DNA of 64,000 nt from Aurantimonas manganoxydans SI85-9A1. GTDB taxonomy: Bacteria > Pseudomonadota > Alphaproteobacteria > Rhizobiales > Rhizobiaceae. Position 1 is the first letter of the stretch. Every line of letters starts with the position of its first letter. The position numbers were made by a program, and so were the translations under genes. Below, one piece after another: positions 36,181 to 53,393 of the stretch. The DNA lies in assembly GCF_000153465.1 (NCBI RefSeq), contig NZ_CH672387.1:3158932-3222931 (forward strand), read 5' to 3'. Under the pieces are notes generated by a model, which ran no database searches, was not told the DNA's origin, and worked only from the letters and a program-made list of their open reading frames with translations.

Positions 36181-36250
36181 TGAATCTCAGAATCCCCGGC
36201 CCGCTTCCCTTTAAGCCTTCACCGTGATTCCCTCGTGTTGGAGGTGGATC

Positions 36251-36640
36251 ATGAGCAAAAGCTATTCGATTGATCTGCGTGAACGGGTCGCCGGCTTCAT
36301 CGACAAGGGTCAGTCTCGTCGGGCGGCGGCTCGCCATTTTGGCGTTAGCGAGAGCTTTGCGATCAAGCTGGACCAGCGGCGGGTCCGGTCAGGATCGATC
36401 GCACCGCACAAGCAGGGCCGCCCTCGCGGTAGCGGAAAGCTGGAGGTGTTTGAGGCCTTCCTGATCGGCGCCGTCGAAGCCAAGCCCGACATCACCATGC
36501 CGGAACTGGCCGCGCTGCTGATGGAGGTGCACAGCGTGACCGCCGCCCCGGCGGTGCTGTCGCGCTTTCTGTGCCGGCGCGGCTTCACATATAAAAAAAT
36601 GCCTGATGGCGTCGGAATGCGCACGCGCCGGCGTGCGTGA
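36251..36640 (+). CDS. IS630 transposase, N-terminal frame
   Basis: DNA-binding part (129 aa from ATG at 36251, after GGAGGTGG). It contains the homeodomain-like HTH ([17 protein letters not shown], then [19 protein letters not shown]) and a second HTH. The frame crosses an A7 run (36593-36599, coding YKK) and then diverges into unrelated residues. In complete IS630 transposases the text continues YKK-x-LMASE, which is found in the next frame. Joining them needs a +1 (or -2) slip at A7, or the element has gained a base there. Confidence 0.88.
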
Positions 36641-37208
36641 GGAGCGCCGGGTCTGGAAGACCAAGCGCCAGCCCCGGATGCGATTGGCGCCGCAGCGTCT
36701 GGTGTTCATCGACGAGACGTCGGTGACGACCAAGATGGCCCGGCTGCGCGGCCGTAGCCGGCGCGGCCGGAGACTGCGCGCCGACGCACCCTTCGGCCAC
36801 TGGGGCACCCAGACCTTCATTGCCGGCCTGCGCTGCCACGAACTAACCGCACCCTGGGTCATCGACCGGCCGCTCAACCGATCCGCCTTCGACACCTACA
36901 TCGAGACCCAGCTCGCGCCGACGCTGCGCAAAGGCGACATCGTCATTCTCGACAATCTTGCTGTCCACAAAAGTCAGCGGGCGGCCGAGTGCCTTCGACG
37001 AAGAGGCGCCTGGTTCCTATTCCTGCCACCCTATTCGCCGGATCTGAACCCGATCGAGATGGCGTTCTCAAAGCTGAAGGCACATCTGCGCAAGGCTGCC
37101 GCCAGAACATTCGACGATCTCTGGAAGGCCATCGGCGATATCTGCGGCCTCTTTGAACCAGAAGAGTGCTGGAACTACCTCAAGGCCGCGGGATATGCGT
37201 CTGATTAA
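36606..37208 (+). CDS. IS630 transposase, catalytic frame
   Basis: DDE part of the transposase. Catalytic Asp in VFIDETS, second Asp in [11 protein letters not shown], and Glu in [14 protein letters not shown]; the C-terminus [14 protein letters not shown] is the family ending. This frame is open across the A7 run, so the fused product would be about 319 aa, normal for IS630. It is unlikely to be translated alone, because the ATG at 36606 has no convincing ribosome-binding site. Confidence 0.9.
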
Positions 37209-37210
37209 GC

Positions 37211-37221
37211 GTCCGACGCTC
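37211..37221 (-). repeat. IS630 right terminal inverted repeat
   Basis: GTCCGACGCTC immediately before TA; the perfect complement of the left end. Confidence 0.9.
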
Positions 37222-37376
37222 TAGCCCGAATTGTATGACCATCCCAGATGGGGATCCTTGCCGATCCGGTTGTAAATGGTCATCCAACGCCAACGCATTC
37301 CCGGCGGACGCGCGCCGACATCAAGCATCGAGCGGTGGGCGCGCAGATAGGCGGCATGAGGTAGCAGAAGCCACAT
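37221..37376 (-). CDS. Short unidentified protein or gene 3' remnant next to IS630
   Basis: From ATG at 37376 the minus strand encodes 51 aa with real-protein texture (MWLLLPHAAYLRAH, RPPGMRWRWMTIYNRIGK, DPHLGWSYNSG), rich in Trp/Tyr. The frame is open for about 24 more codons upstream, without another ATG, to a stop near 37450, suggesting the 3' end of a larger gene whose front was lost. Its TAG stop lies on the CTA at 37221-37223, the IS630 junction. It is in the same direction as, and downstream of, dhaL. Family not recognised. Confidence 0.35.
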   Translation of the reverse strand: MWLLLPHAAYLRAHRSMLDVGARPPGMRWRWMTIYNRIGKDPHLGWSYNSG

Positions 37377-37477
37377 GATCGGCGGCTCGTTTCCGCAGCC
37401 GTTCGTTCGTTTCCGTGTCTCGGAGGCTGCATCAGGTCCCTGCGAGCATCAGCCCGGCTCACTCGGGAAGAAGCGCA

Positions 37478-38086
37478 TCAACACTCCTCGGCTGTAGCGG
37501 CTTCGATGATCCGCAAGAGTGCGAGTTGCCCCGGGTCATCCAACTCGGCGCTCTTTTCCGCGAACATCCTGGCGCGGCCGAGCTTGCATGGCCTGCCGCG
37601 GAAATCATGCAACGTGTCTTTGGCTGCGTCCAACGCGGCCCTGGCCATTAGGTCCGGTGGCACCCCGTCGAGGGCCCTGGCGACGCGATCGAGGCTGTCG
37701 AGGACCGTCTTGTCTCCCAGATTGCCCTTCCCCCGCGCCATCATCGCGTCCCTCGCCGCGGCGATCAGTCCGGCCAGGTCTTCGGGCTCGATGGCATGCG
37801 AGCCCTTTGCAGATTTGGCCGCAGCCATGAACCCCGTCGCGAGAAGGGTACCGTAGGACGAGGCCGACACGCGCTGAAATGCCTTTGCGCATTCCAGCAA
37901 CGCCATGCCCATGTCCTCCGGCAACGTCGCCTCGGCCGCCTCCGCGAAGCCTCGGGATACGGTGATGCCGAGGTCGCCATCACCCAACTGACCATCGGCA
38001 GCGTTGAGCTCGTCCGCAAAGGCTGCCGCCTTCGTCGCCACGCGCGTCAGCGCAGCGTGCATAACGCCCCGGTCGATCTGCGTCAT
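37478..38086 (-). CDS. dhaL: Dihydroxyacetone kinase subunit DhaL-like
   Basis: Nucleotide-binding subunit of a two-component ketose/triose kinase. The start at 38086 follows GAGGAGG. The Mg-ADP motif DGQLGDGDLGITVSRG is near residue 30 and GDKTVLDSL near residue 125; the all-helical DhaL barrel accounts for the whole 202 aa. It lies 10 bp after dhaK and ends the minus-strand operon. No DhaM phosphotransfer gene is present in the window, so whether ATP or a PTS protein is the phosphate donor is not settled. Confidence 0.93.
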   Translation of the reverse strand: MTQIDRGVMHAALTRVATKAAAFADELNAADGQLGDGDLGITVSRGFAEAAEATLPEDMGMALLECAKAFQRVSASSYGTLLATGFMAAAKSAKGSHAIEPEDLAGLIAAARDAMMARGKGNLGDKTVLDSLDRVARALDGVPPDLMARAALDAAKDTLHDFRGRPCKLGRARMFAEKSAELDDPGQLALLRIIEAATAEEC

Positions 38087-38096
38087 GGCATCCTCC

Positions 38097-39092
38097 TCAG
38101 ACTTGCCAGTATGCACAGGCCGCCGGCGCCTTCAGATACCGTTCGAGTTCCTCGTCCAGCGCCAGGGTCGTGATCGTTGCGCCGGTCATCTCCATCGAAG
38201 TCGCATAGCGTCCGACCAGCGGCATGACGATCTCCGCGCCCAGATCATCGAAGCGCTGCTTCACCCGCCGGTACATGATGTAGAGTTCCTCCAGCGGCGT
38301 GGCGCCCAGCGAGTTCACCAATACGGACAAACGATCGCCCTTGCCGAACTCATGATCCGCCAGGATGCGATCGATCATTTCGTCGGTGATCGCATCAGCC
38401 GGTTTGAGCTTGTCGCGCCAGATACCTGGCTCGCCATGGATGCCCATTCCCATTTCCATCTCGTCCTCGCCGATCGCGAAGGTGGCCTTCCCGGCCTGGG
38501 GCACGATGCAGGGGCTGAGCGCCATGCCGATGGAACGACAGGAATCGGCCGCCTTCTGCGCGATCCGAGTGACCTCGCCGAGGTCGGCCCTCGTATCCGC
38601 GGCGGCGCCGGCGATCTTGAAAGCGTAGACCATTCCCGCGACACCCCGGCGTTTCTCGGCCTCCTGCTTCGGTGCCGAGACAACGTCGTCAGCCAACAAT
38701 ACCGTGGCGGTTGCGATATCGTCTTCCATCTCGACCATCTCGCCGGCCATGTCGAAATTCATGACATCGCCGCCGTAATTGCCATAGAGCCGCAGGACAC
38801 CGGCTCCGCCATTCGCATGCCGGATGGCGCTCGCCATCTGTTCGGCCGAGGGAGACGCAAAGACATCTCCGACCGCGCAGGCATCGAGAAAGCCCGGGCC
38901 GACATAACCGGTGAATATCGGCAGATGGCCGGAGCCGCCCCCCGTGACGATCCCCACCTTTCCCTGGACCGAGCCGCCCGCGCGGACGATGACCCGCCGA
39001 TCCGGCTGCTCGTAATATTCCGGATGTGCCGCGGTGAAGCCCGACAGCATCTCGTCGACATAGGATTCGGGCTGATTGAGGATCTTCTTCAA
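38097..39092 (-). CDS. dhaK: Dihydroxyacetone kinase subunit DhaK-like
   Basis: Substrate-binding subunit, 331 aa, starting at TTG (39092) with GGGAGGGAGA upstream. It has TGGGSGH (residues 50-56) and the catalytic His219 in GIHGEPG that binds the substrate carbonyl covalently. Known members phosphorylate dihydroxyacetone or tetruloses such as erythrulose. Membership of a sugar/polyol ABC operon with a second (FGGY) kinase argues for a ketose intermediate made by the pathway rather than free dihydroxyacetone (inference). Confidence 0.93.
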   Translation of the reverse strand: MKKILNQPESYVDEMLSGFTAAHPEYYEQPDRRVIVRAGGSVQGKVGIVTGGGSGHLPIFTGYVGPGFLDACAVGDVFASPSAEQMASAIRHANGGAGVLRLYGNYGGDVMNFDMAGEMVEMEDDIATATVLLADDVVSAPKQEAEKRRGVAGMVYAFKIAGAAADTRADLGEVTRIAQKAADSCRSIGMALSPCIVPQAGKATFAIGEDEMEMGMGIHGEPGIWRDKLKPADAITDEMIDRILADHEFGKGDRLSVLVNSLGATPLEELYIMYRRVKQRFDDLGAEIVMPLVGRYATSMEMTGATITTLALDEELERYLKAPAACAYWQV

Positions 39093-39121
39093 GGCTTCGT
39101 CTCCCTCCCTGGAGCGTTGGC

Positions 39122-40135
39122 TCAGACGGCGGCTCGAGCAAGGCGCTCGCGGTGTTTGGCGAAACGGTCGATCACGATCGGCAGTCCGGTGCCGAGGATG
39201 ATCAGGATACCGACCACGACCTTCTGCCAGTAGGACGGAACGCCGGCACTGATCAGCGATGTGTTGATCATGGTGATCACCAGAGCACCAAGCAACGTGC
39301 CCACGACGGTTCCATGCCCGCCGCTGATCCGGGCTCCGCCCAGAACCACGGCTGCGATGACATTCAGCTCGATACCGACGAGATCGAAGGGATTGGCCAT
39401 GCGTGAGAGCGTCATGTGCGTCATGCCGGCCAAGCCCGCGATCGTGCCGGCGATGACGTAGATCCAGATCTTCACACGCGACACGTTGATCCCGATCCGA
39501 CGCGCGCCCTCCTCCGAGCCGCCGATCGCATAGATGGTACGACCAAACCGCGTGAGATTCATCAGGACCCCCACGGCGAGCGCCGCAAGGATGAGCACGA
39601 CGAAGGACAGCGGCAACGAGACCAACTGTCCGACCGCATTTTCCATGCGGACGATCATCGTCCGGGCAAAAGAGATTACGTTGCGCGGGACAGTCGTGAT
39701 GTAGGTCGTCCCGACAAAGGTCAGAAGCGCACCGCGAAACAGGCTCAGGGTCCCGAGCGTGACGATCAGAGTCGGAAGCCCGAGACCACCGATAAGCAAG
39801 CCGTTGACGAGGCCTAGGGACGCGCCGATCAGGGCGCTGATCACGAACAAGCCGAGCACCGGCATCGGGATGTCGATCCCGAGTACCAGGGTCATCGTCG
39901 TGTACATCGCGAAGGCACCGATGGCGGTGAAAGAGACGTCGATCCCGCCGGAGGCCAGCACCATCATCACGCCGAGGGCGAAAATGCCGGTGACCAGCGA
40001 GTTGCGCATCAGATCGACCAGCGTCGCCAGCGACAGGAAATCGGGATTGAAGCCGCCGATGACGAGCGCGAACAGGATCGCGGCGATCAACACCACGCCT
40101 TGCGGCGAAGCCAGTGCGTTCGATACCAGCCGCAT
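39122..40135 (-). CDS. Sugar ABC permease (RbsC family), permease 2
   Basis: 337-aa membrane subunit with about ten hydrophobic helices. Family motifs are MMVLASGGIDVSFTAIGAFAMY near residue 58, TLGTLSLFRGALLTFVG near residue 127, and the coupling loop GRTIYAIGGSEEGARRIGINV; the C-terminal GGARISGGHGTVVGTLLGALV is typical. It overlaps the ATPase stop by 1 bp (ATGA arrangement). The operon has a second, different RbsC-like permease at 45325-46323, as in AI-2 (LsrC/LsrD) and rhamnose-type systems that use a heterodimer. Confidence 0.93.
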   Translation of the reverse strand: MRLVSNALASPQGVVLIAAILFALVIGGFNPDFLSLATLVDLMRNSLVTGIFALGVMMVLASGGIDVSFTAIGAFAMYTTMTLVLGIDIPMPVLGLFVISALIGASLGLVNGLLIGGLGLPTLIVTLGTLSLFRGALLTFVGTTYITTVPRNVISFARTMIVRMENAVGQLVSLPLSFVVLILAALAVGVLMNLTRFGRTIYAIGGSEEGARRIGINVSRVKIWIYVIAGTIAGLAGMTHMTLSRMANPFDLVGIELNVIAAVVLGGARISGGHGTVVGTLLGALVITMINTSLISAGVPSYWQKVVVGILIILGTGLPIVIDRFAKHRERLARAAV

Positions 40136-41622
40136 CAGGCCTGCACCTCCTTCGTCACTTCGGCATTGAGGCGGTCCTCATCGACGGTGGCCGCGTCGAA
40201 ACGAGCGGTGATCCTGCCCTTGACCATCACCAGGATGCGATCGGAAAGGGCCAGCGCCTCACCGATGTCGTCGGTGATCACCATCACCGCCATTCCGCTG
40301 CGGCTGAGCGAGAGCAGGATTTCGTGGATCTCCCGCTTCGAGCCGATATCGACCCCGACCGTGGGTCCGTTGAGGATCATCAGCCGCGGGGTGCGTTCCA
40401 TCCAACGTGCGAGCACGACGCGCTGCTGGTTGCCGCCGGACAGGGTGGCCACGGTCGGCTCGACCCCCTGGGTCTTGATCCGCAGCTTTTCGACGGCTGC
40501 GCGGGCGCGCTGGCGCAATCCCCTGCGCGAAACGAAGATATTGTCCTCCAGAGTCGCGACGGTGATATTGTCGGCGATAGATTGGTCCAGAAACAGGCCT
40601 TCCGTCAGCCGATCCTCGGGCACATAAGCGATGCCTGCAGCCATGGCATCGCGCGGGCCTGAGAAGGCTGTGGGCATTCCATCGACAACGATGTCGCCCT
40701 CGTCCGGCGACAGCATGCCGAAGAGCGACAGCGACAGCTCTGTCCGACCCGAGCCCAGCAACCCGACCAGAGATACGATCTCTCCGGGCTTCAGCTCCAG
40801 ATCGACATCGGCATACTCGCCCTTGCGCGAAAGGTTGCGCGCCGACAGGAAGACCGGTGCATCCCTGACCGGCTCTCGCTCCATGCGTTGTGTCTCGACC
40901 TTGCGCCCGGTCATGTCCCGTCCGAGCCGCGTGGCGTCGAAGGCACCGACCGGGCCTTCCGACACGATGCGTCCGTCCCGCAACACCGTGATCGTGTCAC
41001 AGAAGGCGAAGACCTCCTCGGTCTTGTGGCTGACGAAGAGGAACGCAACCCCGTCCGCCTTGAGCGACGTGATGATCTCGGACAAGCGCCGCACCTCGCT
41101 GCGGGTCAGCGCGGTCGTCGGCTCGTCCATCACGATTATCCGCGCTTCGTTGGCCAGCGCGCGGGCAATCGCGACCAGTTGCTTGGACGCGACAGGCAGC
41201 AACTCAACGAGCATCGCCGGATCGAGCTCGACTCCCATGCGGGCCAACGTATCGACCGCGATGCGGCGGTCAGCCCCGGCGCGGTGCCAGCGCTCGCCGG
41301 ATGCGGCGGCGCGCAGGAAGGCAATATTCTCGGCCACCGTCAGGTTCGGGAACAACGAGAAATCCTGGTAGATCACCGACAGCCCGGCCGCGATCGCTTC
41401 CGTTGAATCGCCGTGCATCCTGCGGCCAGCGATCGTCACCTCGCCCGCGTCAGCCGCTACAATGCCGGACAGAATCTTGATGAGCGTCGATTTTCCGGAG
41501 CCATTTTCGCCGGCGATACAGCGCACTTCCCCCCGTTCGAGACGAAGCCCCACATCTTCCAGCACGCGTACCGGTCCATACGCCTTGCTGATTCCGGTCA
41601 TCGACAGGAGGGGGTCGGCCAT
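40135..41622 (-). CDS. Sugar ABC ATPase (RbsA family, duplicated)
   Basis: 495-aa protein of two fused ABC domains. The first has GENGSGKST (residues about 38-46), Q-loop YQDFSLFPNLT, Walker B with IVMDEPTTAL and a weak signature (LPVASKQLVAIA). The second has the degenerate P-loop GLLGSGRTEL usual in RbsA proteins, a good LSGGNQQRV signature, and LNGPTVGVD in place of the usual DEPT. It energises both permeases of the operon. Separated from the binding-protein gene by 65 bp with a 12-bp hairpin. Confidence 0.93.
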   Translation of the reverse strand: MADPLLSMTGISKAYGPVRVLEDVGLRLERGEVRCIAGENGSGKSTLIKILSGIVAADAGEVTIAGRRMHGDSTEAIAAGLSVIYQDFSLFPNLTVAENIAFLRAAASGERWHRAGADRRIAVDTLARMGVELDPAMLVELLPVASKQLVAIARALANEARIIVMDEPTTALTRSEVRRLSEIITSLKADGVAFLFVSHKTEEVFAFCDTITVLRDGRIVSEGPVGAFDATRLGRDMTGRKVETQRMEREPVRDAPVFLSARNLSRKGEYADVDLELKPGEIVSLVGLLGSGRTELSLSLFGMLSPDEGDIVVDGMPTAFSGPRDAMAAGIAYVPEDRLTEGLFLDQSIADNITVATLEDNIFVSRRGLRQRARAAVEKLRIKTQGVEPTVATLSGGNQQRVVLARWMERTPRLMILNGPTVGVDIGSKREIHEILLSLSRSGMAVMVITDDIGEALALSDRILVMVKGRITARFDAATVDEDRLNAEVTKEVQA

Positions 41623-41652
41623 CGCAGATCACGCTCGCATACACGTTCAGAG

Positions 41653-41680
41653 CGGGCTGCCCGGACCCCCGGGCAGCCCG
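41653..41680 (-). other. Intercistronic hairpin after sugar-binding-protein gene
   Basis: Perfect 12-bp arms (CGGGCTGCCCGG at 41653-41664, complement at 41669-41680) with a 4-nt loop, 7 nt beyond the binding-protein stop and before the ATPase gene. No T run in the direction of transcription. Confidence 0.65.
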
Positions 41681-41687
41681 TCGACAA

Positions 41688-42680
41688 TCAGAAATCGTAA
41701 TCGTTCATGTTGTCAGCGGTCACGTCGACCCACGCCTGGCCGTAGATGACCTTTCCATCCACCCGAACCTCGTTGTAGCCCTCGACCCCGAGATCGGCCC
41801 CCGTCTCGATCGTTTCGCCGTTCATTGCCTTCGCCGCGACGACGTTCATGGCGTAGCCGGCCTTGGCCGGATCCCAGAACGAAATCATGTCGATATCACC
41901 GGTTTCGAGATACGGGCCCGATACCGACGGCAGACTGGTTCCGACAATCGAAATCTGATCGTTGAGCCCGGCTTCCTCGACAGCCAGCGCCGCACCGACC
42001 ACGTCCTCGCCGGCAGAGCCCTGCATGCCCTTGATGTTGGGGTAGGTGCGCAGCAATTCGCGCATCTTGGCATAGGCCTGCTGCTGCTGTTCGGCGGATT
42101 CCTGCTTTCCGCCGACCAGGGTCATGTTCGGGTAATTCGCTTCCTGGTAGGCAATCGCCGCGTCGACCCATGCATTGTGGGTCACCGAGGTCAGATAACC
42201 GACGAAGACAGCATATTCCCCCTCGCCGCCCATCTTCTGGGCGAGAGCTTCCATCAGATGCTCGCCATAGGCCTTGTTGTCGAACGCCTCGAGATCGTAG
42301 GTGATGTTCTCCAGCGTCGCGCCTTCATGACCGACAACGACAATATTGTTGTCGAGGGCACGCTTGAGCACCGGCTCGAGGGTCTGGGGCGAATTGGGTA
42401 CCACGTTGATCGCATCGACGCCGCGGGCGATCAGATCCTCGATCAACTGGACCTGCAGGGCCGCGTCGGCAGTTGCCGCGCCGACCTGGGTGGCGTCATT
42501 GCCGGTTGCCTCGGCGTACTCGCGAACACCTTCTTCCATGCGGTTGAACCAAGCGATGCCGGACAGCTTGACGACCGTCACCATCTCGCGTGCGTCCTGG
42601 GCGCCAACCATTCCGGCAGCGCCAATAAGGGTCGACGCAGCGAGCGCCCCCATCAGTGCAGTTCTGAACTTGCCTGCCAT
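41688..42680 (-). CDS. Sugar ABC substrate-binding protein (LsrB/RhaS-like)
   Basis: 330-aa type-I periplasmic binding protein with a signal peptide ending GMVGA-QD (about 27 residues), start preceded by AGGGAGAAG. Features are VKLSGIAWFNRMEEGVREYA at the N-lobe, AINVVPNSPQTLEPVLKRA, GHEGATLENITYDLEAF and MQGSAGEDVVGAALAVEEAGL, all of the Peripla_BP_4 group that binds AI-2, rhamnose or pentitol-type ligands. The ligand here is unknown. First gene of the transporter proper, after the FGGY kinase. Confidence 0.93.
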   Translation of the reverse strand: MAGKFRTALMGALAASTLIGAAGMVGAQDAREMVTVVKLSGIAWFNRMEEGVREYAEATGNDATQVGAATADAALQVQLIEDLIARGVDAINVVPNSPQTLEPVLKRALDNNIVVVGHEGATLENITYDLEAFDNKAYGEHLMEALAQKMGGEGEYAVFVGYLTSVTHNAWVDAAIAYQEANYPNMTLVGGKQESAEQQQQAYAKMRELLRTYPNIKGMQGSAGEDVVGAALAVEEAGLNDQISIVGTSLPSVSGPYLETGDIDMISFWDPAKAGYAMNVVAAKAMNGETIETGADLGVEGYNEVRVDGKVIYGQAWVDVTADNMNDYDF

Positions 42681-42725
42681 GCTACTTCTCCCTGTTGGGC
42701 ACCGGAACCGATGCCGTGGCCTCCC

Positions 42726-44222
42726 TCAAGCGCCAGCCTGCATGAGGTCCTTCGTGCGCTCGTAGAGTTCGCGATAGGTGCGGAATCCCGCCGCGTAGAG
42801 CGGGGCATGTTCAGTGCGGGGAACGATCGCCCCGGTTTGCGGATTCCATCTGTCGATATCCGCCTCGACAAGATCTCCCACGCCGAGGCCGGCAAGAAAG
42901 GCGCTGCCGAGACTTGCGCCGACCGTTTCCCGGCGCAGCAACTGATCGGTGCCGCAGATATCCGACACGGCCTGCGACCAGACGGCGTTCTTGGTGCCGC
43001 CGCCGACAGCCGCCAGGATGGATGGCGGGTGGTCACTCTCGACATAGGTGTCGATTACGTGGCGAACGCCATAGGCGATCCCTTCGAGCACGGCCCGGAA
43101 CAGGTCCCCGCGCTCGTGAGTCAGGTCGAGGCCGAAGATGATGCCTTTGGCGTGGGGATCGTGAATCGGTGTCCGTTCGCCGGAAAAATAGGGCAGGATG
43201 ATCAGCCCCCGCGAGCCCGGGGGGGATTGCGCCGCTTCGGCCGCCAACGCGCCCATGGCCGTCTCCGACGGCAAGTCGCGGGCGAAGCGGTTGCGGAACC
43301 ATTGGGTCAGCGTTCCGCTCGTCGCCAGACCGGACATCAGGGCATGGCGGCCGGGAAACAGCCAGGGCGCGTACCACAGCCGCGGATCGCGCGCCCGGTC
43401 CTCCGTCACCTGGATGATGAAGACCGTCGAGCCGTACATCATCATGGTCTCGCCCGGTCGGGACACCCCAACGCTCATCGCTTCGGCGGCAGCATCGATC
43501 GTCCCGGCGATGACCGGGGTGCCGACAGCCAGACCCGTGGCTTCTGCGGCAGCAGGCGTAACCCGCCCGGCAATTTCGGTCGTCCACAGCAGTTCGGGCA
43601 TCCGTTCACGCTCGACGATGCCGTCCATCAGGGTATCCGACCAGTCCTGATGTTCCACGTCGTAAAGCGGCTGAAAGCTCCCGGCAGAATAATGGTCGAT
43701 CACGCGGCGCCCGGTCAGCCGCTCGACAAGAAACGTCGTGGAATTCACGAAGCCGTCGGCCTGTGCGTAGATCTCCGGACGGTGACGCTTCAGCCAGAGG
43801 ATCTTCGGGCCAACCGATTGCGAGGTCAGCGCATTCCCCGTGCGCTCGAACAGCGTGTCCAGACCGATGCGCTCGTTCAGCTCGGCGATTTCGGCGTGGG
43901 CGCGCGTGTCGACCCCATACAACACGGCGTTCATCAGCGGGTTGCCGAAACGATCGACCGGCAACATGCACGGACCAATTCCACTGGCGCCGACTGCCCG
44001 TATAGCCGTTGCAGGCAGATCGGCCTCGGCAAGCAGTTCCCGGGAGATCGCGGCGAACTCTCCCCACCAGTCCGATTCCGGGTCGTGTTCGGCCCAGCCC
44101 GGACGCGGCACGATCAGTCGGTGCGAACGGCGCGCCTGGGCGAGGATCCGACCATCCCCCACGACGAGGACGCCTTTCGTCTCGAAGGTTCCGACGTCGA
44201 TGCCGAGATAGGTGCCGCTCAC
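42726..44222 (-). CDS. FGGY-family carbohydrate kinase
   Basis: 498-aa kinase beginning with GTG at 44222, overlapping the preceding stop by 4 bp. It has the N-terminal phosphate-1 motif (LGIDVGTFETKGVLV), a substrate-site region near GASGIGPCMLPVD, and the C-terminal ATPase-fold motifs (YGVRHVIDTY, AVGGGTKNAVWSQ and GASLGSAFLAGLG). Resembles xylulokinase/L-ribulokinase-like members of uncertain specificity. In this ABC-fed operon it would perform the phosphorylation that a PTS would otherwise provide. Confidence 0.92.
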   Translation of the reverse strand: MSGTYLGIDVGTFETKGVLVVGDGRILAQARRSHRLIVPRPGWAEHDPESDWWGEFAAISRELLAEADLPATAIRAVGASGIGPCMLPVDRFGNPLMNAVLYGVDTRAHAEIAELNERIGLDTLFERTGNALTSQSVGPKILWLKRHRPEIYAQADGFVNSTTFLVERLTGRRVIDHYSAGSFQPLYDVEHQDWSDTLMDGIVERERMPELLWTTEIAGRVTPAAAEATGLAVGTPVIAGTIDAAAEAMSVGVSRPGETMMMYGSTVFIIQVTEDRARDPRLWYAPWLFPGRHALMSGLATSGTLTQWFRNRFARDLPSETAMGALAAEAAQSPPGSRGLIILPYFSGERTPIHDPHAKGIIFGLDLTHERGDLFRAVLEGIAYGVRHVIDTYVESDHPPSILAAVGGGTKNAVWSQAVSDICGTDQLLRRETVGASLGSAFLAGLGVGDLVEADIDRWNPQTGAIVPRTEHAPLYAAGFRTYRELYERTKDLMQAGA

Positions 44223-45328
44223 GTGTAGACATCCCGATCAAGGGGGAAGTCGACCCCGATACGCCGGATGGCGCCGACCACCAGTTCGGTCAGACCGACG
44301 AGATCGTTCAGATCGCAGACCTCGAGCGCGGTATGGGTGTAGCGGCTTGGAAAACACAGATCGATGCAGGCAACGCCCTCGCCGACAAGCTGGACATAGG
44401 ACGAGTCCGTCAACGCGCCGACATGCGCGGTGCGCTGAAGCGGAATCCCGTCCTCCCTGGCGGTCGACGCCACCAACGCCGTCAGCGCCGGATGCGGAAT
44501 CGTGCCGTTGAGCGTGCCGCGACCATGGAAGGAATAGAGGCTCATGGCAGGCCCACCGCCCAGTCGCACCTCTCCCCGATGCGTCATGTCCGGCGTGTCC
44601 GCCGTCAGCGCGAGATCGAGCTGGATCGCAATATCCGGGCGGAGCGCCTGAGCTGCTACCATTGCGCCGCGCAGGTTGAACTCCTCCAGTACCGCGAATA
44701 CGAAATGCACGGTGGGGCGTGGCGAGATGTCCTTCAACAGCCGGGCTGCTTCCACGACCACCGCACAGCCGGCGCGATCGTCGACCGACGTGCCGGCGAT
44801 CCGATCGGCATTCAGATGCATGACCCTGGGCTCGTAGACGACAGGCGTCCCGATCTCGATCCCCAGCGCCCGCACCGCGTCCGCCGTGTCGGCCCCCACG
44901 TCGATGAACAGGTCGGCATAGGGCGTGACCTTGTATTTCTCTTCCGGCGGCGTCGCGTGGTGGCTCTTGTTGGCGACGATACCTGAGACATCCCGCCCCT
45001 CGCCGACACAGAAGCGTACGGCCTGAGCCGCCAACGCCTTTTCGGGGACCCCGCCGAGCCGCTCGACACGGATCAGGCCGCTCGGCTCGATCTTGCGGGT
45101 TACGAACCCCAACTGATCGGTATGCGCGAAGAGCATGATGCTCGGGGCCCCCGCCTCGCCTTCGATCGTCGAGATGAGATTTCCGAGCCGATCGGTGCGA
45201 GAGGTCAGGCCGAATTCCGCCAGTGCGTCGGCCGTCCTGCGACGGACCCTGTCTTCGTGGCCGGACAGTCCGGGTACCAGCATCAGGTCGTGAAGGATTG
45301 TCCGCAGTCTGGTCTTGAGGTCAGTCAT
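44219..45328 (-). CDS. M42-family metallohydrolase (SgcX-like)
   Basis: 369 aa from ATG at 45328, overlapping the upstream permease by 4 bp. Di-metal ligands follow the M42 pattern: His69 (FAHTDQLGF), Asp184 (SVDDRAG), the Glu215-Glu216 pair (VLEEFN), Asp238 (IQLDLA) and a C-terminal His in PSRYTHTALE. M42 enzymes are classed as aminopeptidases or endoglucanase-like proteins; the member in E. coli sgc, SgcX, sits next to a BtpA protein and a DeoR regulator, as here. An action on a glycoconjugate or N-acylated sugar is possible but not shown. Confidence 0.9.
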   Translation of the reverse strand: MTDLKTRLRTILHDLMLVPGLSGHEDRVRRRTADALAEFGLTSRTDRLGNLISTIEGEAGAPSIMLFAHTDQLGFVTRKIEPSGLIRVERLGGVPEKALAAQAVRFCVGEGRDVSGIVANKSHHATPPEEKYKVTPYADLFIDVGADTADAVRALGIEIGTPVVYEPRVMHLNADRIAGTSVDDRAGCAVVVEAARLLKDISPRPTVHFVFAVLEEFNLRGAMVAAQALRPDIAIQLDLALTADTPDMTHRGEVRLGGGPAMSLYSFHGRGTLNGTIPHPALTALVASTAREDGIPLQRTAHVGALTDSSYVQLVGEGVACIDLCFPSRYTHTALEVCDLNDLVGLTELVVGAIRRIGVDFPLDRDVYT

Positions 45329-46323
45329 GTCGAAGTCGCCTTGTCGGGCCTCGGCCGGAACCTTGCGAGACCAGCGCCTTCGAAGAGTGCTCTGACGGTC
45401 ATTACGAGGATCAGCAGGCCACCGAAGAACAGGTCGCGTGCGAAGGCCGAGAATGCGAGAAAGTTGAGGCCGGAGGAAATCAGCTGCAGGCTGATCACCG
45501 CCAGAACGATGCCGGTGACCGAACCCGATCCGCCAAACGGACTGACGCCGGCAAGGATGTTGATGAGAATAACGAGGAGCAGGTACGACCCGCCGTAATC
45601 CGCATTGGCGGAGTTGACCCGTGCAAGGATCACGAGGCCGGCGAGGGCCGCGATGAAGCCGGACATTCCGTAGATCTTCAGGATCAACGACGTTTCCGGC
45701 ATGCCGGCGAAGCGGGCCGCCACCGGGTTGGCGCCGAACAGTCGCGCGCGCATGCCCGAGGGGGTCAGCCGCAGATACAGGCCGAGGCCCACGGCGGCCA
45801 ACGCGAAGACCAGCAGCGGAACCGGGAGGAAGCCGCCGATCGAGGCGTTGCCGAAGGCGCCGTACCATGAAGGTATGCCGGTAATGGCGGGCCCGCCGGT
45901 CACCACAATGCCGATCCCGCCGTAGAGCTGCAGGGTGCCGAGCGTCGCGAGAATGGGCGGGAGGCGGAGATAGGCGACCAGGCAGCCATTGAGCAGGCCG
46001 CAGAGAATGCCGATCAGCAGCGCCGCGGGAATTGCCAGCCAGGCGAATTCCGGCCCCGCGCGCAGCAGAAGCGCGGCCACGATCGATGCGAGATTGGCCA
46101 TCGCCACGACCGACAGGTCGATGCCGCCCGACAGCATGGTGGGCAAGACCGCCAGAGCCAGAAGACCGAATTCGGGAAACTGCGACCCCATCGAATTGAG
46201 GTTGGCGAAGCTCAGGAAGTTCGGTGCGAACAAAGACAGCGCCGCGAAGATCACGAGCGCCAGCGCGCCGAGCCCGAAAAGATACGAGCCGTGACTGTCG
46301 CGACGCACGCTCATCGCGCTCAC
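45325..46323 (-). CDS. Sugar ABC permease (RbsC family), permease 1
   Basis: 332-aa membrane protein, about ten helices. Motifs LPTMLSGGIDLSVVAMANLAS near residue 60, TLGTLQLYGGIGIVVTGG near residue 122, coupling loop RARLFGANPVAARFAGM and a C-terminal GVSPFGGSGSVTGIVLAVI. Its sequence differs clearly from the second permease of the operon, so a heterodimeric channel is likely. It overlaps both neighbours by 4 bp (BtpA upstream, M42 downstream). Confidence 0.92.
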   Translation of the reverse strand: MSAMSVRRDSHGSYLFGLGALALVIFAALSLFAPNFLSFANLNSMGSQFPEFGLLALAVLPTMLSGGIDLSVVAMANLASIVAALLLRAGPEFAWLAIPAALLIGILCGLLNGCLVAYLRLPPILATLGTLQLYGGIGIVVTGGPAITGIPSWYGAFGNASIGGFLPVPLLVFALAAVGLGLYLRLTPSGMRARLFGANPVAARFAGMPETSLILKIYGMSGFIAALAGLVILARVNSANADYGGSYLLLVILINILAGVSPFGGSGSVTGIVLAVISLQLISSGLNFLAFSAFARDLFFGGLLILVMTVRALFEGAGLARFRPRPDKATST

Positions 46324-47129
46324 TCCCCCCTTGCGACCTTTGCGAGCCGCATGAATTCGGCGGCCCGGTCAGCATCCACCGGTTTCCAGGTATCGCCGTC
46401 TATCTTCAGCGAAGAGCCCACGATACAGCCATCAGCGACCTTGAGAACATCGGCGACCGTCGCGTGCTTGACGCCGGTATTGGCAAGCACCGGCGTTGTC
46501 GGAAGCACACCCTTCACGGCGATGAGGTCAGTCATTTCGGCCGCTTCGCCGGTGATCGCGCCGGACACGAGGATCGCATCCGGGATCGATGAGAACACGG
46601 CCGAACGCGCCCGATCCGCCAGTTCACGACGATCCAGCGAATAAGCGAACTCCGCGCAAACATTGGCGAACATTGCAAGGTCCGGCCGGCGCAGTCTATC
46701 ACGATACCGCATCGCAGCGCCGGCATCTGGGGTCCAGGGCCCCATGTCGGACGCATAGGTTCCGGTCAGGATCTCGCGCAGGAAGGCGGCACCCGTTGCT
46801 GCGGCCAGCGCGACGCTCGCCATCGGATCCCACAGAACGTTGACGCCGAACGGTTTCTCGATCTCCGGCCGCAGCCGTCCGATCACCTGGGCCATGGTTG
46901 CCGTCGACGCCGTATCGACCTTCAGTTCGTACGGGCGGTCATTCTCGTTGCCGAACATCACCGCATCGACATCGGCAGCCTGGAGTGCCTGCAGGTCACG
47001 TCGCGCCGCCTCGACGATCGCCTCGATCCCCCCTGCGGGATCGTACAGGGGCGTCCCCGGAAGCGGCAGCAAATGCACCATCGCAATGACGGGCTTGCGT
47101 TCGCCGAATAAGGTCCTGAACTTGTTCAT
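46320..47129 (-). CDS. BtpA/SgcQ family protein
   Basis: 269 aa. The BtpA barrel signature is easy to see: VIAMVHLLPLPGTPLYD near residue 14, DVDAVMFGNENDRPYELKVD, FGVNVLWDPMASVALAAATGA, FLREILTGTYASDMG, and C-terminal VLANTGVKHATVADVLKVADGCIVGS. BtpA was named for photosystem I biogenesis in cyanobacteria; heterotroph homologues such as SgcQ lie in sugar operons and have no proven reaction. The TIM-barrel layout suggests a phosphosugar or nucleotide ligand (inference). Second gene of the operon. Confidence 0.92.
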   Translation of the reverse strand: MNKFRTLFGERKPVIAMVHLLPLPGTPLYDPAGGIEAIVEAARRDLQALQAADVDAVMFGNENDRPYELKVDTASTATMAQVIGRLRPEIEKPFGVNVLWDPMASVALAAATGAAFLREILTGTYASDMGPWTPDAGAAMRYRDRLRRPDLAMFANVCAEFAYSLDRRELADRARSAVFSSIPDAILVSGAITGEAAEMTDLIAVKGVLPTTPVLANTGVKHATVADVLKVADGCIVGSSLKIDGDTWKPVDADRAAEFMRLAKVARGE

Positions 47130-47180
47130 TGGTCGGCCCGGTGTCCTGTGCTGGGCAAGACGGCTGTCGCCGTGATTGCG

Positions 47181-47957
47181 TTAGTGAAGTTCGATCCTGT
47201 CGAACGACGAGCGATAGGGGTCGAGACGACCGGCGGCCTTGCGATCCGTAATCAGGGTCTCGATTGCATCGAGGCCGCAGACCGGAACCGGCGCGCGCGT
47301 CCCCAGTTTGGAATGATCGGCGAGAAGGATCGTCCGGGCGGCGCAGCCGATGCCGCCCTGCTTTACGGCCGCTTCCTCCGGGGTGGAATTCGAGACGCCG
47401 GCCGGGTCGAGCGCATCCGCCGACATCAGAAAGAGATCGCAGACCAAGTCGCGCAGCGCGCGCAACGACCACTCGCCGATCAGACTGTAGTAGCCGTTCC
47501 TCACTTCGCCACCGAGAAGAGACACCCGGGTTTCGCCAACAGCGACGGCTTCCGCGATCTTGAGATCCATCGCGAAGATGCGCACGGGGCGGCCGGCAAG
47601 CACGCGAGCCGCCGCAAGGGTTGTCGTGCCCGAATCCACCAGAACGCGTTGTCCATCCTCGACCCGGCGGGCGGCGGCGGCTCCGATACGCGTCTTGGCT
47701 GCCTGATGCGTGCGCAGCTTCTCCATGAACAAGGGCTCTGTCGGCCCGCCCTGTCCTGGCGCCATCGCGCCGCCGTGCGTCCGCACGATCAGCCCGGCTT
47801 GCGACAGCACTTCGAGATCCCGGCGCGCCGTCGGGCCGGAAACGCCAAACGCATCGATCAGCTCTCCAACCGTCATGCGACCACGTGCGGCGATGAGTTC
47901 GGCCATGCGCCGGTGGCGATCTTGCGGGAAACGGATCTGGCGTGCCGGCTTCTGCAT
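47181..47957 (-). CDS. DeoR family transcriptional regulator (SgcR-like position)
   Basis: 258 aa from ATG at 47957 (MQKPARQIRFPQDRHRRM); the frame stays open far upstream but without family resemblance. The HTH is AELIAARGRMTVGELIDAFGVSGPTARRDLEVL (two adjoining helices and turn, residues about 16-48), then the DeoR sensor domain with VDSGTTTLAAARVL (phosphosugar loop), LLGGEVRNGYYSLIGEW and LLADHSKLGTRAPVPV. It is the first gene of the operon and has a perfect palindrome just 5 bp before its start, so it likely represses the whole operon including itself. Confidence 0.93.
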   Translation of the reverse strand: MQKPARQIRFPQDRHRRMAELIAARGRMTVGELIDAFGVSGPTARRDLEVLSQAGLIVRTHGGAMAPGQGGPTEPLFMEKLRTHQAAKTRIGAAAARRVEDGQRVLVDSGTTTLAAARVLAGRPVRIFAMDLKIAEAVAVGETRVSLLGGEVRNGYYSLIGEWSLRALRDLVCDLFLMSADALDPAGVSNSTPEEAAVKQGGIGCAARTILLADHSKLGTRAPVPVCGLDAIETLITDRKAAGRLDPYRSSFDRIELH

Positions 47958-47961
47958 GCCA

Positions 47962-47977
47962 TGATCATTAATGATCA
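47962..47977. promoter_or_regulatory. Perfect 16-bp palindrome, candidate DeoR operator
   Basis: TGATCATTAATGATCA is its own reverse complement and ends 5 bp before the DeoR ATG, a location that would block promoter clearance or translation start. It is strikingly AT-rich compared with its surroundings. Confidence 0.65.
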
Positions 47978-48393
47978 CTTTGCCAGCGTCAAGTCTCGCG
48001 TGGCGTGGGCGAAAGAGGCATGAAACCGCTTGAGGGAATGCGCCTGATCGAGGCCTGCGGGCTCGCTGGCACGCCGTCTCGGCCCTCCTCCTCTGCGGCC
48101 CTATCTGCTCAGATCGTCGGGTCATGCTGTTGGACGAAAAAAGCTTCCGATGCTGCTCGCCGGGTCGAGCGGGGGAAACCAGCGCATCGCGCCCGCGCCG
48201 GATTGGCCTGGAGGAACTCGCGAACGGCGACGACCGCGCGACCAAAATCACGAGGAGGCGCAACACCGTATGGAACGAGTGATCGCCTGGAGAAGGGTCA
48301 AGCGTGCCGCTCCTCTTCGACATCGTTCCTTGCTCGCAATTGGGCTCGCGGGGACCTCGTTACTCAAGATTGCCTTCATCGGCTGTCGGCATT
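47978..48393. other. Intergenic region upstream of the DeoR operon, possible gene remnant
   Basis: Must hold the promoter of the minus-strand operon. On the plus strand an ATG at 48020 after AAAGAGG opens with MKPLEGMRLIEACGL, reminiscent of the N-terminus of CaiB/BaiF CoA-transferases, but the similarity stops after about 15 codons. A separate plus frame near 48150-48280 ends ATKITRRRNTVWNE. These may be debris of lost genes. No intact gene is supported. Confidence 0.3.
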
Positions 48394-49386
48394 TCAGCTG
48401 CTCATGGCAGCGAGTTCTCCGCGCGCCATCCCCCAAAGCGTGCGCGCCAGCAGCGCCAAGACGGCAAGCGTTGCGAACCCCAGGAGGAGCAGGGCGATCA
48501 CATCGGCTACGCTGCTCGCCGCGGCCGTTGCGAAGCGGATTCCGGCAATGGCGGTGGCTGCGAGCGGGAAGCTGATCGCCCACCACGAAACATTGAAGGG
48601 GCAACAGGTCGCCGCGTGACGCAGCCTCCCCACAAGCACGACAAGCATAAAAAGCGAGAGGACGTAGAGCGATTCCGCCAACAGATCGATCTGCCCAGTG
48701 GTGACGACATAGGTGGAAAAGCCGACCGCGAAGGGCGCGATCAGGATCATCAGCGAGGGCTGCAACGCCGGCGGCAGAGGCTCCTCGAACAGGAGGCGGG
48801 AGAAAACCAGCGTGAATATCGGGATGGCGAAGAACAGCCCGACCGCCAGACCCAGCACCATCACGCCGTGCATTGGCGGAAGCCCCAGCGATGGCAGCGC
48901 CAGCGGCAGATCGAGCATGCCGACCACCGGTACGATCCATGCGGGTGTCGCGTGGGCGACGACCTGGCGGTCGCTCATCCAGCGGCTGACGATAGTCCAG
49001 GCAAAGACAACCATCCCGACGGCGCCGATCAACCAGATCGCTTGGGCGAGCAGCAGGGAGTACGGCGCCAACACGATCGGGATCAGCAGCAAACTGATGA
49101 AGACCGTCCCGAACAGATTACCTGCGACGGGGTGACGGAACTCGGCCACGACGGCGGCGGGCGCCGTCATCACTTTCGCCGCGTAGCCGATCACGAGCGC
49201 GGCGAACGTCAAGAGCGCTACGAGGCCGATCGTGTCTGCGATCAAGGGGGGCGCCTCGTATCGGATCTGCGCTTGGCGCCACGCCACGCTCAGTCCGGTG
49301 AGCCCCATCGTCGAACCGAACAGTCCGACGGGCAGGAAAGCAACGATCGATCGGTGAGGCTGTCTCGATATCACCGTCTCAGTCAT
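48394..49386 (-). CDS. TehA/SLAC1-type (TDT family) transporter
   Basis: 330-aa integral membrane protein of about ten helices. The start at 49386 yields MTETVISRQPHRSIVAFLPVGLFGS; the N-terminal GLFGSTMGLTGLSVAW and the FRHPVAGNLFGT segment (residues about 80-92) match the voltage-dependent anion channel / C4-dicarboxylate TDT family. The gating Phe of TehA is expected in the FSTYVVTTG region near residue 225. Members carry anions such as malate, sulfite, nitrate or tellurite-related ions. A small ORF overlaps its start by 8 bp. Confidence 0.9.
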   Translation of the reverse strand: MTETVISRQPHRSIVAFLPVGLFGSTMGLTGLSVAWRQAQIRYEAPPLIADTIGLVALLTFAALVIGYAAKVMTAPAAVVAEFRHPVAGNLFGTVFISLLLIPIVLAPYSLLLAQAIWLIGAVGMVVFAWTIVSRWMSDRQVVAHATPAWIVPVVGMLDLPLALPSLGLPPMHGVMVLGLAVGLFFAIPIFTLVFSRLLFEEPLPPALQPSLMILIAPFAVGFSTYVVTTGQIDLLAESLYVLSLFMLVVLVGRLRHAATCCPFNVSWWAISFPLAATAIAGIRFATAAASSVADVIALLLLGFATLAVLALLARTLWGMARGELAAMSS

Positions 49387-49540
49387 GGCCGGAACGCCTT
49401 GAGAAGCGGGCCTGTGATGGCGCCAGCGGCGCCACGAGCGGGCCGGTGGGCGGCGAAAGCGCCGGGACGGACCCAGGCACGAGACCCCAAGGAAAGGCAC
49501 CCGGTCGTTCGATCGAGGCTTCGTCGGCAGCAGCAGACAT
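49379..49540 (-). CDS. Small hypothetical protein with strong ribosome-binding site
   Basis: 53-aa frame from ATG at 49540 with AGGAGG (49546-49551) at ideal spacing. The product (begins MSAAADEASIERPG, ends SRRSGHD) is Pro/Ala-rich without a known domain. It overlaps the start of the transporter gene, an arrangement typical of translational coupling or a leader peptide. The strong site is the only evidence that it is expressed. Confidence 0.35.
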   Translation of the reverse strand: MSAAADEASIERPGAFPWGLVPGSVPALSPPTGPLVAPLAPSQARFSRRSGHD

Positions 49541-49586
49541 GCCAACCTCCTGCGGGTTCACCGTTCGAGACCCGTTTCCGGGCTGT

Positions 49587-52687: not shown

Positions 52688-53047
52688 AGCGATCGGACGC
52701 TTCGTCGAGGGGGCGGGACGTCGCCATGGCACTCTCCGCGCGAAGTGCATGCGGAGGGAGAGACGGCGCCGCAAGGGATGGATGTCAACTGGATCACGCG
52801 CCGAGCCCGCGACCTGAGCCACCTTGTTCGAAGGCTCAACTCAGCAAGTTCCAACCCGGTTCGCTCCACGAATTGCTCAGCTAACTGCTTCCACCGGTAG
52901 TAAACAGTGCCGGGACGTTCGAGACCTGTCGCGACCCCATTTCCGCACTCCGTGTCACACGGTTGCGCCACAGTCTTGTGTCCCAGCGGGGACGCGCTTC
53001 CCCAGCCTGGAACGCCGAGTCAAGAATTTCAAAGGGTTGAATGGTTC
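52688..53047. other. Intergenic region between LysR gene and tRNA
   Basis: 360 bp. A minus-strand frame (about 52570-52971) contains TVYYRWKQLAEQFVERTG, faintly like an IS3-type OrfA segment, but without supporting context. Nothing else recognised. tRNA 3' flanks are frequent integration sites, yet no integrase or att repeat is visible here. Confidence 0.35.
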
Positions 53048-53122
53048 TGGCTGGGGCGGCAGGATTCGAACCTGCGAATGGCGGCACCAAAAGCCGCTGC
53101 CTTACCACTTGGCGACGCCCCA
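53048..53122 (-). tRNA. tRNA-Gln (UUG)
   Basis: 75 nt on the minus strand including an encoded CCA. The seven-base-pair acceptor stem is TGGGGCG with CGCCCCA, discriminator G, the anticodon loop reads CTTTTGGT with anticodon TTG, and the T arm contains GGTTCGAATCC. All arms fold normally. Confidence 0.95.
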
Positions 53123-53393
53123 AGGCGCATGGCGGTCCTATAGCCTCTGGCCGGCGTCCATGCAACGACCCGTCGCGGGGGTCCGCACGCGGTGGGGCGC
53201 GCCGGATCGTCGCCGGGCGATGGGGGCCGTTTCGGCGTGCGGCGATGGCGGCCGTGGCGCCATCGCCGCGGCGCGATAGCCTGGACCGGCGGGCCGTTAG
53301 CCAGCCGTTGTCCCGCGCAATGACTTCCGCCGCCCTTGCTTGCTGCGCTCCCCGCGCGATGTCCTCAAGCATCCGCAACGACGAGACGCTGTC

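Follow-up and report, generated by a model that had tools for sequence, protein, structure and literature searches.

A BtpA- and M42-containing gene run with an ABC importer and an FGGY kinase in Aurantimonas manganoxydans, a candidate counterpart of the E. coli sgc operon

The ten-gene run and its control region

The window analysed here is a stretch of 64,000 nucleotides from Aurantimonas manganoxydans SI85-9A1 (contig NZ_CH672387.1, positions 3,158,932 to 3,222,931 of the forward strand). Between positions 47957 and 37478 it carries a run of 10 minus-strand genes, leading from a DeoR-family regulator via relatives of the E. coli proteins SgcQ (BtpA family) and SgcX (M42 family) to DhaL. With a little more than even confidence, we regard this run as one DeoR-controlled operon for the import and degradation of a sugar of the ketose type; the likeliest candidate is a pentulose-like furanose, maybe carrying an amide-linked group. 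The genes are listed in order of transcription, followed by two control features (aa, amino acids; ABC, ATP-binding cassette).

47181..47957, minus strand: DeoR-family regulator, 258 aa (Pfam DeoRC, 126 bits)
46320..47129, minus strand: BtpA/SgcQ-type TIM barrel, 269 aa, signature E62 D101 E119 D128 E160 (Pfam BtpA, 246 bits)
45325..46323, minus strand: RbsC-type ABC permease 1, 332 aa (Pfam BPD_transp_2; 106 and 124 bits for the two permeases)
44219..45328, minus strand: M42 metallohydrolase, SgcX-like, 369 aa, metal ligands kept (Pfam Peptidase_M42, 241 bits)
42726..44222, minus strand: FGGY kinase, XylB-like, 498 aa (Pfam FGGY_N, 159 bits)
41688..42680, minus strand: periplasmic sugar receptor, 330 aa (Pfam Peripla_BP_4, 206 bits)
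40135..41622, minus strand: RbsA-type double ATPase, 495 aa (Pfam ABC_tran, 168 bits)
39122..40135, minus strand: RbsC-type ABC permease 2, 337 aa (Pfam BPD_transp_2)
38097..39092, minus strand: DhaK-like kinase subunit, 331 aa (Pfam Dak1, 391 bits)
37478..38086, minus strand: DhaL-like kinase subunit, 202 aa (Pfam Dak2, 100 bits)
47964..47992, minus strand: promoter-like site (-35-like TTGACG at 47992-47987, spacer 17, -10-like AATGAT at 47969-47964)
47962..47977, minus strand: operator, perfect 16-bp palindrome TGATCATTAATGATCA, overlapping the -10-like hexamer upstream of DeoR

All ten proteins score well above their Pfam family cut-offs, and the coordinates bear out the genes and the order named in the original prediction, which had been made from the sequence alone. 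The start codons of the DeoR, M42 and DhaL genes were chosen among in-frame alternatives. Overlaps of 1-4 bp, expected for many adjacent genes, occur at four of the nine junctions (BtpA/RbsC1, RbsC1/M42, M42/FGGY, RbsA/RbsC2), the remaining five being gaps of 51, 45, 65, 29 and 10 bp. In agreement with the prediction, no protein of the ten has a Pfam match to a family of the phosphotransferase system (PTS). The 4.33-Mb genome encodes one BtpA protein over the family cut-off, three M42, five FGGY and two DhaK proteins; by arithmetic from these counts, a random 17-kb span would contain M42 in about 1% and FGGY in about 2% of cases, so that their presence beside BtpA exceeds chance expectation.

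The promoter-like site is the sole such match in 37200-48400; shuffled sequences yield 1.8 on average, so that by itself it is no evidence. The operator was compared across 25 regions upstream of DeoR genes, comprising the window and 24 related loci with a DeoR match of >200 bits in tblastn. It is present at at least 14 of 18 positions in 24 of these regions, TTGAC begins 13-14 bases before the 18-base operator reference in 23, and two operator 8-mers are seen in 18 (maximum 4 in 50 shuffles). The exceptions are L094, which is without operator, and L050, which has the operator but stops short of the place of TTGAC. As these upstream regions are kin, the conservation is partly one of common descent. 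Scanned over 1.49 Mb (window and 80 loci, see below), a weight matrix matched 29 times, always upstream of DeoR; since it derives from these very sites, the informative part is the absence of matches elsewhere. A search for a second operator in the window's genome gave no other site at up to 2 mismatches and one further palindromic place at 3, which suggests that DeoR probably controls this operon alone. The single operator and the promoter-like site upstream of DeoR thus speak for the coherent operon that had been predicted. Intrinsic terminators inside the operon gave no signal, with 7 terminator-like sites on both strands in 37200-48400 against a shuffle mean of 6.3. The -10-like hexamer ends 6 bases ahead of the chosen DeoR start codon (47957-47992, minus strand), so the DeoR message may be leaderless.

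Kinship with sgc and distribution of BtpA loci

In the E. coli K-12 record, sgcX, sgcB, sgcC, sgcQ, sgcA, sgcE and sgcR lie in a row. According to a 2026 study (PMC13343008), the substrate and the biochemical functions of sgc are still to be established, sgc mutants show no growth defect, whether on standard substrates or on 190 Biolog carbon sources, and sgc transcript levels go up on a group of nitrogen-containing carbon sources. The window BtpA is 45% identical to SgcQ, and the window M42 protein 36% to SgcX, 28% to FrvX, 29% to YpdE, and 29% and 23% to the genome's two other M42 proteins. In an M42 tree, the window protein and 16 M42 proteins of such loci join SgcX and its relative from locus L124 with a support of 88/92, on a branch that was not starred and in a tree for which the program warned of long branches. 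The regulator is 30% identical to SgcR, with haloarchaeal GlpR as its best NCBIfam model (148 of 300 bits), and was therefore set aside as a specific sgc marker: of the predicted kinship with the trio SgcR, SgcQ and SgcX, the latter two stand, the DeoR likeness looks generic, and the specific link is BtpA plus M42.

BtpA, M42 and a DeoR-family regulator share a gene run in both systems, and both would couple sugar import to phosphorylation. They differ in that an ABC importer and an FGGY kinase stand where sgc has the PTS subunits IIA, IIB and IIC, as anticipated, that the RPE-like SgcE has no counterpart among the ten genes, and that DhaK/DhaL are added. The E. coli M42 genes sgcX, frvX and ypdE all adjoin PTS genes. 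Within the window's phylum, L124 has its genes in the sgc order; among them are an RPE-like epimerase and a galactitol-type EIIC that exceeds its cut-off.

A scan of genome contigs turned up BtpA relatives at 422 places; the 80 best were retained, so that close relatives are over-represented. To type the loci, the window proteins were run by tblastn and small home-made local profiles were applied, with a 100-bit floor for the counts, and counts of 'none' are thus upper limits. A separate set of 46 BtpA loci shares some genomes with the 80-locus set, and counts from the two must not be summed. The rule for the window set (BtpA, M42, FGGY, receptor, RbsA, RbsC, DeoR) gave 25 loci, from which L078, L091 and L094 were dropped for their different Rbs importer, leaving 22 of the 80; L031 looks window-type, is ended by the contig end and was left out. 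The 22 loci represent eleven genera (Mangrovicella, Antarcticirhabdus, Aurantimonas, Aureimonas, Rhizobium, Microvirga, Mesorhizobium, Aquamicrobium, Nitratireductor, Brucella/Ochrobactrum counted as one, and Stappia) and two further records, and DhaK and DhaL are both nearby in 16; the arrangement extends beyond one genome, and the first condition named as refuting the original prediction therefore does not hold. In 5 of the 22 (L050, L064, L072-L074; Brucella/Ochrobactrum-type), BtpA lies in an adjacent divergent operon, which also holds another FGGY and a HAD protein. The L091 locus (record Mycobacterium sp. KBS0706) closely resembles Inquilinus L078, and its record name may be wrong.

A further 43 loci combine BtpA, M42 and FGGY without the window importer. 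Within 12 kb of BtpA, they encode a CUT1-type permease (34) and receptor (34), a FucU-like mutarotase (24), an aldo-keto reductase (22), creatininase-like (12) and fuconolactonase-like (12) proteins, an HxlB-like SIS isomerase (10) and a galactarate-dehydratase-like protein (7). The receptors of two CUT1-type variants were considered as guides to the ligand and set aside, one being without PDB match and the other matching several sugar receptors (best 5iai, 1.1e-41) with no single ligand indicated. In L047, DeoR, operator, BtpA, M42 and FGGY persist without window importer and without DhaKL. Because BtpA, M42 and FGGY persist while importer and DhaKL change, the constant core is BtpA, M42 and FGGY, with importer and DhaKL variable. 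Among the 55 of the 80 loci with full flanks (at least 7 kb on both sides), which are mutually related and not independent, M42 is found within 8 kb of BtpA in 52 and FGGY in 53.

Counting the window's own genome, BtpA matches at E <= 0.001 occur in 31 of 120 genomes of relatives, and 17 of 349 genomes of a phylum sample exceed the BtpA family cut-off. Of seven other genomes of the genus, three have a match, two of them close (88-90%) and one distant (33%), and the operon is therefore patchy. A quick tree of 47 BtpA sequences, with many open forks, places the window type in one region amid few other loci (3 label changes), nested among CUT1-type rows. The distances of BtpA, M42 and FGGY correlate with rho 0.45-0.58 (permuted maximum 0.19).

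Two other kinds of BtpA locus were observed. The second (L128, L130, L131, L132, L134, L141, L167, L168) combines a ribokinase-like PfkB, GATase1-like and phosphotriesterase-family proteins with an RbsC/RbsA importer. The third (L127, L129, L136-L139) pairs a CUT1-type importer with DeoR, FGGY and a short-chain dehydrogenase; 4 of its 6 loci also encode a HAD phosphatase, and this kind looks like a polyol variant.

Receptor, enzymes and neighbouring features

The nearest solved chains of the receptor are 5bra (1.9e-85), 9i1m (1.4e-62) and 3d02 (2.7e-61), with the best LsrB chain, 5gta, at 3.3e-24; by these E-values, kinship with 5bra and AauA replaces the LsrB-like label of the original prediction. 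Chain 9i1m is AauA with D-ribulose, for which the reported contacts are Lys37, Trp43, Glu118, His167, Glu196 and Ser223 (PMC12307932). Five of these six are kept in the window receptor (Lys38, Trp44, Glu119, His168, Glu197), Ser223 being replaced by Gly224, and the same five are found in 23 of 23 window-type receptors (window and 22 loci) and none of them in the receptor of L094, which is of another type. In the printed alignment, 5bra, whose PDB name reads 'with substrate ribose', keeps Lys, Trp and the first Glu, and does not keep His. The comparison supports a ketofuranose as ligand, not D-ribulose in particular.

DhaK scores 371 bits on TIGR02363 (cut-off 406) and DhaL 74 bits on TIGR02365 (cut-off 138). 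As in DhaKLM, the Dak1 and Dak2 subunits are separate adjacent genes; unlike there, no DhaM stands beside them. The phosphodonor DhaM consists of EIIA-man with an HPr part; by Pfam, no EIIA-man or DhaM is among the ten genes, and the genome's only EIIA-man match is a 138-aa open frame at C1:3790543, >580 kb from the operon. In M42, His69, Asp183, Glu215, Glu216, Asp244 and His332, which we take from TET aminopeptidases to be the important metal and catalytic residues, are retained in 73-75 of the 75 sequences compared. Two M42 enzymes that formerly passed as cellulases have been characterised as aminopeptidases (PMC3511314), and a cellulase function was set aside for the window protein.

The window BtpA clearly belongs to its family (PF03437, 246 bits, cut-off 30; TIGR00259, 247 bits, cut-off 153). 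A single-sequence search of solved structures gave no homolog, and a profile search only weak matches, the best being TrpA and GGGP synthases in the C-terminal part (TrpA 1.7e-5). The predicted model (predicted local distance difference test score 95, predicted template-modelling score 0.93) has strands and helices alternating as in a TIM barrel, and the 50 fold matches listed, with query-normalised template-modelling scores of 0.53-0.63, include DHPS, TrpA, KDPGal aldolase, ThiE and PcrB/GGGPS. BtpA is thus predicted to be a TIM barrel of the phosphate-binding type. Filtering by length and at 88% identity left 61 BtpA rows, of which 47 were aligned and 14 left out. Twenty residues are invariant across the 47, and H19, N61, N97, R118, G219 and K242 lie at or just after strand ends. 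Together with the kept M42 metal ligands, this makes the catalytic roles proposed for BtpA and M42 plausible. A class I aldolase was set aside as a reading of BtpA, as no invariant lysine lies in the barrel strands.

The SgcQ-type signature E62/D101/E119/D128/E160 is carried by the window-type and CUT1-type loci (32 rows, each residue in at least 95%), by the third-kind loci (7 of 7 rows) and by SgcQ itself. Seven distant rows, termed BtpA-type, mostly have His/Asn/Asn/Asn/Lys at the same five positions. The two types differ in their neighbours: in the 46-locus set, where L150 is unclassified and L140 fits neither signature, the 23 SgcQ-type loci with full flanks have FGGY in 21, PTS in 1 and neither in 1, and M42 in 14, and the 14 BtpA-type loci, some with Ala at position 62, have PfkB in 9, no kinase or PTS in 5, and FGGY and M42 in 0. 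The 55 full-flank loci of the 80-locus set are all SgcQ-type (FGGY 53, PfkB only 1, none 1). Neighbours in variant loci that fit sugar phosphates are the RPE-like SgcE (sgc), the HxlB-like SIS protein, and a PTE-family protein accompanied by ribokinase-like PfkB. The matches to HxlB, ribokinase and phospho-furanose-lactonase do not reach the curated NCBIfam cut-offs.

One further feature lies within the operon:

41654..41679, minus strand: GC-rich hairpin between the receptor and RbsA genes (minimum free energy -35.8 kcal/mol for an 83-nt stretch, z -2.0)

Six of 200 shuffles fold equally well; the hairpin might stabilise the mRNA or act as an attenuator, perhaps so that receptor and transporter are expressed unevenly. 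Just past the DhaL end lies a transposase-like element (36224-37208, plus strand) of two overlapping frames, the second with a DDE_3 match of 109 bits and the first without Pfam match, presumably resembling IS630-type elements that are read by frameshift. Upstream of the operon, a gene for a SLAC1-family anion channel is located at 48394-49545 (minus strand), and a tRNA-Gln is predicted at 53048-53122 (minus strand) within a long minus-strand open frame (52881-54614), which may therefore not be a gene over its full extent.

A proposed pathway and its alternatives

For the favoured ketose operon, the importer class, gene order, operator and kinship are read from the sequence; we infer the order of the steps and their chemistry. 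The sugar would enter through the ABC importer, which is of the CUT2 type and in whose receptor five of the six D-ribulose residues of AauA are retained, and would be phosphorylated inside the cell by the XylB-like FGGY kinase, in the role of the PTS in sgc. M42 would cut an amide-type bond, either in the compound as imported or in an intermediate. The SgcQ-type BtpA would bind the phosphate end of the kinase product and rearrange or cleave it via its acidic cluster, perhaps with a metal; we infer the residue roles, possible metal binding included, and the enzyme may be a lyase or an epimerase. DhaK/DhaL would then phosphorylate a short ketose fragment akin to dihydroxyacetone or erythrulose; such a step would be consistent with BtpA cleaving by a retro-aldol reaction in the window variant. 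The compound or a derivative, acting as effector, would release DeoR from its one palindromic operator, which overlaps the promoter-like site.

Several observations weigh against this reading. Ser223 of AauA is Gly in all 23 window-type receptors, and the ligand therefore need not be D-ribulose. The FGGY kinase stays below the XylB cut-off (TIGR01312, 308 of 380 bits) and far below that of the pentulose-kinase model (111 of 409), although it may still act like an FGGY ketose kinase; a D-ribulokinase identity is disfavoured by these scores. DhaKL is not nearby in 6 of the 22 window-type loci (L054, L064, L072-L074, and L026, where the contig ends first), and DhaK is near 1 and missing near 42 of the 43 other M42 and FGGY loci, so that a fragment requiring DhaKL is not general and DhaK/L, a part of the pathway in the original prediction, does not belong to the constant core. 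The TIM-barrel matches are of low information at 12-17% identity, and the sole fully invariant lysine of BtpA, K242, lies past strand 8, leaving no obvious class I aldolase lysine. Seven of 38 full-flank loci of the 46-locus set are without kinase or PTS within 8 kb (five BtpA-type, the SgcQ-type L157 and the unclassified L150). The conserved upstream regions in part mirror common descent, and the distance correlation could reflect species history as well as co-inheritance.

The strongest competitor, which we nevertheless regard as rather unlikely, is that BtpA acts as an epimerase or isomerase through which an unusual ketose phosphate reaches the pentose phosphate pathway, with DhaKL working apart on a side product. 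It draws on the pairing of BtpA with an RPE-like epimerase in sgc, on the HxlB-like SIS protein in 10 and the FucU-like mutarotase in 24 of the 43 other-importer loci, and on DhaKL not being universal; those loci, however, already own an epimerase or isomerase, so that a second one needs a different step, and the fact that 16 of the 22 window-type loci have DhaKL within the gene run points to a fragment awaiting phosphorylation. Plain use of D-ribulose, as in the rbl operon of Citrobacter rodentium, would consist of import, a D-ribulokinase and D-ribulose 5-phosphate, with BtpA and M42 as accessories. The rbl operon and the aau transporter of enterohaemorrhagic E. coli share a CUT2 importer and an AauA-homologous receptor with the window, which has five contacts in common with AauA, and rbl likewise has an FGGY kinase; the accessible part of their description mentions neither BtpA, M42 nor DhaKL, and rbl has a KpsF-like isomerase (PMC12307932). 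Against this stand the XylB-like kinase, far below the pentulose-kinase cut-off, and the constancy of the BtpA-M42-FGGY core. To our knowledge, the D-ribulose 5-phosphate route requires no BtpA, M42 or DhaKL, and we consider it improbable here.

Slightly more doubtful still is the scavenging of peptide or amino-acid conjugates, in which M42 would perform the main catabolic step and the sugar be a mere carrier. The two characterised M42 aminopeptidases (PMC3511314) and the rise of sgc transcripts on nitrogen-containing carbon sources (PMC13343008) would suit it; yet the CUT2 importer, the kinases and DhaKL all point to sugar carbon, the ten genes hold no peptide transporter or amino-acid enzyme by Pfam, and BtpA stays with FGGY in loci without M42. 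We give least credence, and very little, to a variant of Lsr that takes up and destroys autoinducer 2 (AI-2). Lsr comprises a receptor, two permeases, one ATPase, an FGGY kinase and a TIM-barrel enzyme, component types that the window shares, and the window receptor matches LsrB chain 5gta (3.3e-24) as the kinase matches the AI-2 kinase model (153 bits). The scores of both, however, fall below the family cut-offs (AI-2 kinase 153 of 528 bits, LsrB 106 of 384), M42 and DhaKL are extra, and the AI-2 contacts of LsrB, as we take them to be, include aspartates where the window receptor has Glu and His. We know of no place for M42 or DhaKL in Lsr.

Beyond the ketose operon itself, we tentatively put forward, as a proposal somewhat short of even likelihood, that SgcQ-type BtpA proteins form an enzyme class not described so far. 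They would be TIM barrels that bind phosphate and carry a cluster of five acidic residues, and would cleave or rearrange ketose phosphates delivered by FGGY kinases or PTS, with an active site and partners distinct from the BtpA-type, which often has ribokinase-like PfkB and a PTE-family protein nearby, and with the window operon as the ABC/kinase counterpart of sgc. Among the papers listed on BtpA, SgcQ, sgc and M42, no title or abstract opening describes a pathway like that of the window, in line with its having been called undescribed, and none assigns a reaction to BtpA. The operon joins relatives of both odd sgc enzymes with a soluble receptor amenable to a ligand search, and its defined operator offers a reporter, by which the question of sgc, BtpA and SgcX becomes directly testable. 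The split of BtpA active sites by kinase partner is a further testable prediction, and if the window operon is indeed the ABC/kinase counterpart of sgc, its receptor would be a direct route to the substrate class that sgc handles.

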